This document shows positions 2,348 to 52,839 of a stretch of 64,000 bases of DNA, in pieces. The DNA lies in the NCBI RefSeq assembly GCF_002160065.1, contig NZ_NFJW01000009.1, positions 1-64,000 of the forward strand. The letters run 5' to 3'. The notes beneath the pieces were generated by a model, which did not search any database, was not told where the DNA came from, and saw nothing but the letters and a program-made list of their open reading frames with translations. The DNA comes from Collinsella sp. An2. Lineage in GTDB: Bacteria > Actinomycetota > Coriobacteriia > Coriobacteriales > Coriobacteriaceae. Both the position numbers and the translations under genes were made by a program. Each line of letters starts with the position of its first letter. The first letter of the stretch is position 1.

Positions 2348-3721
2348 TCACGCTGCATCGTTGGGCATGGGTATGCCATAGGGGCTGCGAACTGCGGCGA
2401 CGGTGGGTGCCAACATGCTGCTCGCAAGCAGGAGCAGCCCTAGGGCAGCGATCGCCATGGCAGGGATAGGGGAAAATCCGCACAGCGCGGGCAGCCCTGC
2501 TGCCGTCGAGACCACAGCGTCCGATACGAGGGCAATAAGCAGACCGGCAATCAGAGCGTTTACCGTGTGCGCGACGACTTCGAGGACGCGCGCAGCGACG
2601 ATCGTCGTGCGTCGGGCTCCACATGCCGCCAGAAGACGCGCATCGTTTGTGAGGGCGCGGGAGGTCATGATGACGCTTGAGGCTGCACCTACGGCGCACA
2701 GGATTACGGGACCGCCAAACAGCAACAGCATCGACGTGAAATCCAGTGAGGCCGCCATGTCGACAATGCCGTTGCGGGCGATGTATTCCTGGAGCGTGTC
2801 GGATATCGAGCTCACACCGCACACCACGCCGATGCCGACCGCGACGGGGACCTCCATCGCGGTGCTTGACGTTAGGCTGTGGCGGGCGCTTGCCCGCGCG
2901 AGCATCCAAGGGGTACATCGTTGCGGAATCGGGCGGGTCCATGCCGCGAACAGCGAGGGTAAAAGAAGCGGGGCAGCGACGGCGAAGGCGGCGGAAGCCA
3001 GCAGGGGAAGAAACGGGGATACGCTCCATTGGCTCGACGATGTGGGATCCGCCCCGTAGAGAGAGGACGAGGCGAGGCCAAACAGCGCCATCGGGACGAG
3101 GGCCGCTGCAGCGCGCCTTATCCGGGCGCCATGCGGACGGGTACCAGGGTGGCCGCTGGGAAGAGGACCGTCGTCAGCTGTTTGTAAGGCAGCAATCGGC
3201 GGAGTGGTTCCGGCAAGACGCGCGCTGCGAGCGCCGCCAAGGACAAAGACCGCAGCGCTTCCAAGCCATATCCATGGCATGAGGGGGAGTCCCACATCTA
3301 CGGTGGTGTGGGAAATGGTCTGGTAGTAGGGCGAGCAGAACACGAGCGGAAAGAGCGGCCGAACCGATGCGGCCTCGAGAGCAGTCCCGAAGGCCGCTCC
3401 TACGAAGCCCACGGTGGCAAGTTGGGCGCGTACGATGCGCGCGATGAGGCGGGGGCTTACATTTGCTAGCTGCCACAGCGCGAAAGAACGTCGTTGTGCT
3501 ACGACGGCAAGGCGAGACGCCGAGGACACGACCGCTGCCGCGGAAGGGGCGGAAAACGCCAGCACCATGTCGCCCCAAAATCCAAGGGAGGTTTGTGCGT
3601 GCGTCGTGGCAAGCATCGACGCGCCCCATCCACCAACGAAGCCACATGCCACGGCGACCGCGAATGCGCCTGCCCACGTTGCGGCGTTGCGACGGAGCTC
3701 GGCGAATACCAGATGCGTCAT
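2348..3721 (-). CDS. FtsX-like ABC transporter permease
   Basis: Multiple TM segments; start overlaps (ATGA) the stop of the upstream ABC ATPase. Confidence 0.75.
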   Translation of the reverse strand: MTHLVFAELRRNAATWAGAFAVAVACGFVGGWGASMLATTHAQTSLGFWGDMVLAFSAPSAAAVVSSASRLAVVAQRRSFALWQLANVSPRLIARIVRAQLATVGFVGAAFGTALEAASVRPLFPLVFCSPYYQTISHTTVDVGLPLMPWIWLGSAAVFVLGGARSARLAGTTPPIAALQTADDGPLPSGHPGTRPHGARIRRAAAALVPMALFGLASSSLYGADPTSSSQWSVSPFLPLLASAAFAVAAPLLLPSLFAAWTRPIPQRCTPWMLARASARHSLTSSTAMEVPVAVGIGVVCGVSSISDTLQEYIARNGIVDMAASLDFTSMLLLFGGPVILCAVGAASSVIMTSRALTNDARLLAACGARRTTIVAARVLEVVAHTVNALIAGLLIALVSDAVVSTAAGLPALCGFSPIPAMAIAALGLLLLASSMLAPTVAAVRSPYGIPMPNDAA

Positions 3722-11004: not shown

Positions 11005-11411
11005 GACAAAACCTCCTTGACTCGACAAGGTCATGCGAAGAAGGGACAACCGCGCATGCGGCAGGCTACGGACGGCCAGGTGACCGCGCCCCGACTACCC
11101 AACGGGGCCGTGATTTGATCTTCTGGGGGTAGTGTAACTGAGCGGACCCGCTTCGGGCAATCGGTCGGGTTATGGTTTGGCACAAGGTACCGGACGAGGC
11201 AAGCCTGGAGGAGGGTTTCAAGCTGCAATGGACGGGTTGTCGCAAAAAATGCGACAACTCGGGCAGATGGCAAATCGCATCAAGTGGGGAATTTGCTCCT
11301 GATGACCCATTCTGGGACGGGGCCATTATGGTCCATGGCGCGTCATCGGCTCCCGTGTTTACGACAGTAAGTCGGGGCGAGACGAACGCGAAGAAGTATT
11401 AGTAAAAAAAT

Positions 11412-44727: not shown

Positions 44728-44871
44728 AAGTTCGTTTCGGAAAAGGGCGTCCAAACGGCGATCTGCCAAGTAGCCCTAAATGCGCCACCTGTTCTACCTG
44801 CGGTTTTCTCTTTGAAACACCTGGTCTACTCGCCACATCGCGTTTTGGACGCCCTTTTCCGAAACGAACTT
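44728..44871. repeat. Dispersed nested-palindrome element, copy 1
   Basis: 28-bp perfect inverted arms AAGTTCGTTTCGGAAAAGGGCGTCCAAA (44728-44755) / TTTGGACGCCCTTTTCCGAAACGAACTT (44844-44871); interior shared with copy 2. Confidence 0.85.
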
Positions 44872-50922: not shown

Positions 50923-51320
50923 GGAGAAATCCTCCCAGTTGGGGGCAATATTGGTCGCATTTATCTTCGCACAAGTTGCCCACCTGCCCCGCTGCCGTGG
51001 CAGTGTTTTCTCGTGGCGGTCAACTTGACTAGCGGGCCTTGCCGGGTTGGTGGTCGGCTATGTGCCTGAAGGGGGTCACTGTGGTCTCAGGGCTGTGGCG
51101 TGGTCCGGTATGTATAAGTCCTGGCGGGCAAACGAAGGGAAATCTGCGCTCTAGGCGAGCCCAGCCTGGCGGGTACGACCCGGTGCGCATAGGTTCTTTT
51201 GGACGCATCGTTGTTCTTGCGGCTCGGCGGGTGTCAGTTGGATACGCTGGTCTGTCAGCGGCTATGAGAAATGGCCGTCGCGTTCTCTTAAACCGCTACT
51301 TTCGTCGGTCTTTTGTTAGG

Positions 51321-51455
51321 TCGTTTCGAAAAAGGGCGTCCATTTGCAGAATTGCCGAGTAGCCCAAAAAGCACAACGCTCCGACCTGCTGTTTCTTTGA
51401 AGGAAAATCTCGGCTACTCGAGGGTTTCCGATTCGGACGCCCTTTTTCGAAGCGA
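51321..51455. repeat. Dispersed nested-palindrome element, copy 2
   Basis: TCGTTTCGAAAAAGGGCGTCC (51321-51341) / GGACGCCCTTTTTCGAAGCGA (51435-51455); inner stem CGAGTAGCC (51356-51364) / GGCTACTCG (51412-51420). Confidence 0.85.
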
Positions 51456-51554
51456 GTGCGTACGGCGCGGGCCAGGATAGGTAGAAGCGGGGCGGATGGC
51501 GTGGCGCCAAGCCCGCATCCGTCCCGCGCCGGCTTCGTCGGTGCCGGGAGGGGC

Positions 51555-52718
51555 TTACTTGATCACGCGGACGCGATAGACGGCGGGGATCTGCTTCAGC
51601 GCCTCGATGGTCGAGTCCTCCAGGTGTTCGTCGGTGTCGAACATGGTGTAGGCGTTCTCGCCAGCGCTTTCGTTGACCATGCGCTGCACGTTGGCGTTGT
51701 CTTTGGCAAGGATCGCCGTGATCTGGCCGATCATGTTGGGCACGTTGGCATGCAGGCAGGCGATGCGGCTCGCTGCGCGCGCCTTACCCATGGAACAGCT
51801 TGGGTAGTTGACCGAGTGTGCGATGTTGCCGTTTTCCAGATAGTCCTTGAGCTCGGAGATGGCCATGTCGGCGCAGTTCGCCTCGGCCTCGCTTGTGCCG
51901 GCGCCCGAGTGCGTGGTCACGTAGGTGTTGGGCATGAGTACCGTCTTGGGCGTGGCGAAGTCGGTGGCAAACCAGGAGAGCTGACCGGAATGCAGGGCGT
52001 CGTTCACCGCGTCTTCGTCAACGATGGTCTCGCGTGCGAAGTTGATGAGGATGGCGCCCGGGGCCAGCAGCGCCAGCTGGTCGGTGCTGATCATGCCGAT
52101 CGTGTCGGCTTTGCTGGGCACATGGAGCGTAAGGTAGTTGCAGTTGCGGCAGAGGTCCTCAAGGGTGCCGACGCGCTGCACGTCGCGGCTAAGCTCCCAG
52201 GCGTGTTCGACCGAGATGAAAGGATCGTAGCCATAGACATCCATGCCAAGCTGCACGCATGCGTTTGCGACCTTCGATCCCACGTTGCCCAGGCCGATGA
52301 CGCCGATGCGCTTGTCTTTGAGCTCCTGGCCCACGAATGCCTTCTTGACCTTTTCGGCGTCGACCATGATGTTGGGGTCATCGGCGTTGTTGCGCACCCA
52401 CTCCATGGACTGCACCACGCCGCGGCTGGAGAGGATCATCATGCACAGGACCATCTCCTTGACGGCGTTGGCATTTGCTCCGGGGGAGTTGAACACCACG
52501 ACGCCGCGCTTGGCGTAGTCGTCGACGGGGATGTTGTTCACGCCTGCGCCGCAGCGGGCGATGGCGCGGATGCTCTGCGGCAGGTCGTAGCCGTGCAGGT
52601 CGGTCGAACGCATGAGGATGGCGTCGGCTTCGGCGGTGTCTTCGACGAACTCGTAGCCCGAGCCAAACTCGACGCTTCCGTCTTTGGTGATGTCATCGAT
52701 GATTTTGATCTTGCGCAT
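51555..52718 (-). CDS. serA: D-3-phosphoglycerate dehydrogenase family (SerA-like, with ACT-like C-term)
   Basis: RIGVIGLGNVGSKVANACVQLGMDVYGYDPF; adjacent serC. Confidence 0.85.
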   Translation of the reverse strand: MRKIKIIDDITKDGSVEFGSGYEFVEDTAEADAILMRSTDLHGYDLPQSIRAIARCGAGVNNIPVDDYAKRGVVVFNSPGANANAVKEMVLCMMILSSRGVVQSMEWVRNNADDPNIMVDAEKVKKAFVGQELKDKRIGVIGLGNVGSKVANACVQLGMDVYGYDPFISVEHAWELSRDVQRVGTLEDLCRNCNYLTLHVPSKADTIGMISTDQLALLAPGAILINFARETIVDEDAVNDALHSGQLSWFATDFATPKTVLMPNTYVTTHSGAGTSEAEANCADMAISELKDYLENGNIAHSVNYPSCSMGKARAASRIACLHANVPNMIGQITAILAKDNANVQRMVNESAGENAYTMFDTDEHLEDSTIEALKQIPAVYRVRVIK

Positions 52719-52730
52719 GATGCTCCCATC

Positions 52731-52839
52731 GGTGGTCGCGTGCGTTTCTCCTCCGCTCGGGCAGTCCTGTTCGTTCGGAGTCGCCACTGGCGTCTCCGGC
52801 TCGTGCGGAACTCGCTGAGGAGAAACGCACGCGACCACC
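52731..52839. repeat. 109-bp palindrome between serC and serA
   Basis: 23-bp perfect arms GGTGGTCGCGTGCGTTTCTCCTC (52731-52753) / GAGGAGAAACGCACGCGACCACC (52817-52839), inner GGAGtCGCCactGGCGtCTCC. Confidence 0.85.

Follow-up and report, generated by a model that had tools for sequence, protein, structure and literature searches.

A dispersed hairpin repeat with a conserved core and changing stems in Collinsella sp. An2 and related genomes

In REPINs the spacers vary freely except in length and pairing, and the elements adjoin a RAYT gene (Bertels and Rainey 2011, PMC3116915). The SMR-A elements of the archaeon Haloquadratum walsbyi, three families in one species, are about 110 bp long and bear conspicuous terminal inverted repeats which resemble those of no known transposon. 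They cause no target duplication and occur in up to 54 copies, often within other palindromic elements, with insertion into the near-terminal palindromes of IS605-type elements or PATEs (PMC3119063). PATEs possess no terminal inverted repeats and have their ends in common with IS605-type elements (PMC3119063).

The hairpin repeat reported here resembles each of these systems in part. With REPINs it shares two inverted conserved ends and a spacer in a long hairpin, compensatory changes, a high number of copies, an intergenic location, the lack of an own enzyme and the presence of several families per genus. Unlike in REPINs, the core is conserved across genera and the ends change; further, the hairpins are not beside RAYT at the loci checked, and some carriers are without a Y1 protein. 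Compared by description, SMR-A and our element have terminal inverted repeats, absence of duplication and high copy number in common, yet ours is longer (140-155 bp), palindrome targeting is exceptional and no cross-family conserved core is reported for SMR-A. Like PATEs and the IS200/IS605 group, which are thought to move as single strands, it is short, gene-free, palindromic and free of target duplications; in contrast to PATEs a single hairpin makes up the entire element, and an IS605-type element with the same ends was not found. MITEs are likewise non-autonomous, intergenic and equipped with inverted repeats, yet here target duplication is absent, a related transposase was not found and the core is conserved. 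In the open-licence papers searched this hairpin repeat is not described. We consider it to be a non-autonomous mobile hairpin which is mobilised, in the form of a folded single strand, by an enzyme acting in trans; it would be similar to REPINs and SMR-A yet a separate family. We give this reading a probability of about 0.6 and its single-strand step a lower one.

Copies in the window and in the An2 genome

The window, i.e., the whole stretch of 64,000 nucleotides analysed, has its longest perfect inverted repeat at 44728-44871, with 28-bp arms and an 88-nt loop. This is the position at which the original prediction had placed a 28-bp perfect inverted repeat. The homologous second copy which it had claimed is real: both copies align over the full length at 71%, and their scores with R2, a covariance model of the interior only, are far above background. 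The features are as follows.

44728..44871, minus strand: copy 1, the entire hairpin (144 bp, 138.5 bits); the conserved-core (R) strand is the minus strand
44728..44755, no strand: left arm of the copy 1 outer stem, 28 bp perfect, of the family 1 type AAGTTCGTTTCGGAAAAGGGCGTCC
44844..44871, no strand: copy 1 outer stem, right arm, 28 bp perfect
44761..44838, minus strand: copy 1 conserved core; R2 66.7 bits, E 4.8e-17
44823..44834, minus strand: 5' strand of the copy 1 inner helix as read on R, GGCGAGTAGACC
44765..44776, minus strand: 3' strand of the copy 1 inner helix as read on R, GGGCTACTTGGC, including a G.T pair
44792..44807, minus strand: copy 1 conserved loop motif AAAACCGCAGGTAGAA
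44872..44911, no strand: copy 1 degenerate outer arm beyond the stem, 72-78% match to the arms of other family-1 copies
51318..51457, minus strand: copy 2, the entire hairpin; its family 1 stem has perfect arms of 17 bp, and the core has the same relative orientation
51350..51426, minus strand: copy 2 conserved core; R2 65.1 bits, E 1.4e-16

The perfect arms of copy 2, at 51325-51451, become longer when mismatches are counted. The interior motifs said to be shared are indeed present in both copies, read on the minus strand as GAGTAGNCC, CAGGT and GGNCTACTYGG. Compared with shuffles, the two strands of copy 1 fold with z-scores of -10.0 and -11.5, and those of copy 2 with -5.1 and -5.5. Both copies are intergenic. 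Copy 1 is located after an ArsP_2-type exporter and ahead of a radical-SAM activase and its glycyl-radical enzyme; its right-hand degenerate arm, which reaches to about 44911, terminates in the minus-strand sequence GGGAAACACTGAATA, the terminal repeat of a separate MITE family. The neighbours of copy 2 are a DUF1015 gene and a gene for a 2-hydroxyacid dehydrogenase, likely serA (51555-52838). Another strong inverted repeat of the window (52731-52839, 23-bp perfect arms, 63-nt loop) is found a short way upstream of the presumed start of serA on the minus strand; it could be a leader hairpin or a further repeat. At 11026-11129 on the minus strand there is an azaaromatic (yjdF) riboswitch (Rfam RF01764, 55 bits, threshold 45). 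The hairpin itself has no match above the curated threshold in Rfam 15, in agreement with the earlier statement that no named family fits it.

With copy 1 as the query, BLASTN located about 22 full-length places in the 2.54 Mb genome. The family-1 stem pattern, with at most one mismatch, has 45 matches, 44 of which form 22 pairs about 113 bp apart; thus the family-1 stem is not found without the core. No stem half in this genome is parted from its partner by a gene. The structural model R1 led to a second stem, ACTCGTTTCGGTTTTATGCAGTTAG, of which ten copies were read. The genome therefore holds at least 32 copies, 22 with the family-1 stem and at least 10 with the second. The element was correctly foreseen to be dispersed, with homologous stem and loop, but it is a family-wide repeat and not an element of two copies.

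A conserved core in changing stems

When relatives are searched, the BLASTN matches are confined to the interior, which is enclosed each time by a different long stem. The core comprises about 79 nt on the minus strand of the window, CGAGTAGACC..AAAACCGCAGGTAGA..GGTCTACTCG, and in the general reading of the R strand cCGAGTAGACCG .. aACAAAACCGCAGGTAGAnGCGTTG .. GGTCTACTCGGC. R1, built from ten copies with the stem included, has matches in 65 of the 67 genomes of the family. R2, built from the inner helix and loop of 54 sequences, finds the core in 64 of them. G004 and G029 have a match with neither model. Outside the family R2 has clear matches in family f5 (G117, G150, G168) and in f2 (G195, G213), and 194 of the 301 genomes of the order are without a match; an f5 copy (L432) again has its own long stem. 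Since a model free of the stem recovers the core and thins out beyond the family, the hairpin family is not an artefact of searching for any long hairpin. The matches per genome were capped in number and are not copy numbers, and those of R1 include both strands of one copy. The family which carries the hairpin is, we infer, Coriobacteriaceae, common gut bacteria, and genus g2 is presumably Collinsella.

Read in one orientation, 103 distinct copies fall into 23 stem-sequence clusters, or about 20 stem types after allowing for register splits. The core is thus found in at least 20 different long perfect stems, and further stems were met beyond these copies. Within and between stem clusters the identities are 91% and 43% for the stem (a split which is by construction, as the clusters are defined on the stem), 92% and 82% for the inner helix and 62% and 48% for the loop. 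The stem is the fast-changing part between genera and the core the conserved one, which the original prediction had overlooked; this reversed conservation is the new point. Near-perfect long palindromes without the core also exist in intergenic DNA of g2 genomes, e.g., GGGGACAGGCACTTATTTCCCACCGGTGGGAAATAAGTGCCTGTCCCC (loci L290 and L292, genomes G003 and G082).

Pairing in the outer stem amounts to 96.7%, and 14 of its 21 pairs show double changes. In slid controls, in which the partners were moved by 1-3 columns, pairing of the whole structure fell from 89.5% to 35-50%. Mismatches in the outer stem have no wobble preference (31 G.T versus 28 A.C). In the inner helix, read on the R strand, 49 G.T face 5 A.C, a count which excludes three loosely paired positions, and they arose by changes on either arm. 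Counting one event per stem cluster and pair type, with one loose pair included, the ratio is 41 to 14 (p 4e-4; naive p 4e-10). Covariation in the inner helix is modest overall; in g2 it includes the compensatory change from GAGTAGAC/GTCTACTC to GAGCACAC/GTGTGCTC. The alignments, made by covariance model or MAFFT, are biased towards structure, and a one-strand bias is harder to generate in this way than pairing. We read this as selection of the outer stem as a DNA palindrome and of the inner hairpin for the fold of one strand, R, be it RNA or single-stranded DNA; the one-strand G.T tolerance fits both equally.

Such a fold might also belong to a multi-copy structured RNA with a host function, e.g., a trans-acting RNA or an RNA-processing or protein-binding site, dispersed by chance. 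The R strand would be transcribed, and the inner hairpin and loop motif would bind a protein. A functional RNA had been named from the start as the alternative to a mobile element, and we regard it as unlikely, albeit the strongest competitor. The inner helix which stays paired and tolerates G.U on one strand only, its compensatory change in g2 and the conserved loop motif speak for it. On the other hand, the outer stem, the longest helix, has no G.U preference, and syntenic places in relatives are without copies. The orientation with respect to co-directional flanking genes is mixed, 9 sense and 12 antisense, with ORFs called mechanically. A linked gene family or pathway is absent: the 128 ORFs flanking copies represent 108 Pfam families, each with three matches at most, and include no recurrent transposase. 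Near copy 1 no promoter-like site was found. The idea that the loop motif AACCGCAGG pairs over 9 nt with the 16S rRNA 3' end was considered and dropped; against the sequence which we take to be this end, all nine bases are kept in just 23 of 103 copies.

Bidirectional intrinsic terminators are the least credible of the explanations considered. Some stem families are A-rich on the left and T-rich on the right, e.g., with TTTTTTCT after the hairpin in G001, and a GC-rich stem directly followed by a T-run does occur in some of them. However, the T-run is absent in family 1 and in family 5 of G005, divergent and convergent gene pairs enclose copies equally often (9 versus 9), and the conserved 48-nt loop is not required for termination. 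The view that the element is more than a terminator was well taken.

Vacant places, element ends and the search for an enzyme

A check for empty sites had been recommended with the original prediction. At the place of copy 2 in G001, G002, G005 and G006 the neighbouring genes are kept, about 130-235 bp separate them as compared with 645 bp, and the hairpin is absent. At the place of copy 1 in the same four genomes there is no core nearby, and the gene content differs. A base-exact clean empty site was not found in a close relative because the syntenic intergenic DNA is too diverged. G011 and G015, considered for this purpose, were rejected, as the region is a mosaic of other palindromic repeats. 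Intergenic mosaics of different palindromic repeats, the hairpin element included, are seen in these g6 genomes at 2400-3570 of locus L488 (G015 C25) and at many places in G011. Many g2 copies reside at flanks common to several species; thus, not all copies are recent. A replication-strand bias, as some kinds of single-strand transposition would lead one to expect, is not consistent, being suggestive in G072 and not in other genomes, with the origin not located. These points, like the absence of a recurrent transposase beside the copies, weigh against the mobile-hairpin reading.

The ends are sharp in G005, at TGTCA..TGACA in six unrelated places. Direct repeats at the stem ends are not longer than expected by chance, i.e., there is no target duplication. 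Insertion into palindromes as a general rule was rejected: 14 of 102 copies are above the 95% threshold, mostly of one composite lineage. In 14 of the 22 family-1 copies the homology runs about 47 bp further on each side and ends at CTA|GGGAAACGCTGA, and the CTA..TAG flanks are restricted to this subset. Elsewhere in the genome this terminal repeat delimits small gene-free elements, 90-160 bp long, with ends TAGGGAAACACTGATTAAAGGC (G000 C8:3194-3353, C1:349693-349852, C44:57099-57190); they form a separate MITE family, which also bounds the family-1 composites. We take the composites of about 227 bp, with their 47-bp arms and CTA..TAG flanks, as one sub-lineage which was later carried within a second small transposon. 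To the right of 349852 on C1 of G000 (locus L082) the motif TGGTCAAAAG..TCCKCYKGGGTA is repeated about four times in some 250 bp of intergenic DNA.

These data bear on a further explanation, a classical MITE in which a DDE transposase binds the stem ends as terminal inverted repeats. The long terminal inverted repeats, the intergenic position and the absence of a gene agree with it, as do the composites with a second terminal-repeat pair common to other small elements. Yet target duplication at the stem ends does not exceed chance, and it is the supposed terminal repeat that varies from lineage to lineage and the core that is conserved, whereas a MITE should show the opposite. An autonomous partner was not found: a search through the outer terminal repeat of the composites returned only other gene-free elements of 90-160 bp, and no terminal repeats common to an autonomous element were found in the An2 genome. 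We consider a classical MITE improbable.

Could the hairpin be a REPIN, two inverted REPs mobilised by the Y1 transposase RAYT? The comparable size of the hairpin, the conservation of its ends in any one genome, the lack of duplications and the intergenic location match, and a PF01797 (Y1_Tnp) protein is present in 55 of the 67 genomes of the family. But carriers such as G011, G015, G014, G072, G076, G090 and others have no PF01797 match. Moreover, the RAYT loci of the An2 genome and of seven relatives, inspected with 1.5 kb flanks, contain none of the hairpins and no GAGTAGAC core, and linkage to RAYT within 1.5 kb is thereby refuted. Some of these loci, that of An2 included, carry other palindromes, e.g., GGGGACGTGTTCC or ATTGGGGACGGGTAC, and others carry none. 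A REPIN is thus very improbable. The earlier label "mobile/REP-like" stands as the best functional class; because the RAYT link fails, it does not stand for REP or REPIN in the strict sense. A more distant Y1 enzyme from another family is a possible mobiliser. In locus L408 (G000 C3:35800-39200, at 2103-2229) a RAYT-like Y1 gene adjoins a 127-bp hairpin of its own, TTTCGCCATTGGGGACGGGTACAAATGGC; the genome of the hairpin element thus also contains an ordinary REPIN/RAYT pair.

A phage or plasmid origin was also looked for. The stem GGAAGTATGCGGCAAATTC has no viral match, and there was no plasmid match. The 16-mer loop motif matched 65 scattered viral contigs, which we take as chance. The same applies to the exact stem 17-mer, which in the named genome collection, where records close to this genome may be lacking, has 43 single matches, one per stretch, in unrelated organisms.

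A proposed mode of movement and its meaning

We propose that the element, about 140-155 bp without a gene of its own, is moved by an enzyme predicted to be supplied in trans. Its ends would be the ends of the long stem, and it would insert into intergenic DNA without target duplication. The likeliest substrate would be a single strand in its folded form, namely R (minus in the window), with the conserved inner hairpin and loop motif as the putative recognition part for a common enzyme or factor. Any one genome would maintain the outer stem as a nearly perfect palindrome of DNA, and between lineages this stem would drift or be replaced. That the hairpin moves at present, that a single strand is the substrate and that the enzyme acts in trans are three steps which we infer from these comparisons.

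A bolder proposal, which we put forward tentatively and hold to be rather doubtful as yet, is a new class of bacterial mobile element. Its identity would reside in a core hairpin, RNA or single-stranded DNA of one strand, and its palindromic ends would be replaceable. One core lineage would have used at least 20 ends, and the enzyme which mobilises it would belong to a type that has so far not been connected with hairpin repeats.

A repeat which is present in nearly every genome of the family, with at least 32 copies in this one, seems to be unnamed so far. As its conservation is the reverse of what is predicted for terminal-repeat elements and REPINs, it offers a handle on hairpin recognition and on the turnover of ends. 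It also provides a concrete search target, namely a protein which recognises the CGAGTAG..CAGGTAGA..CTACTCG core.
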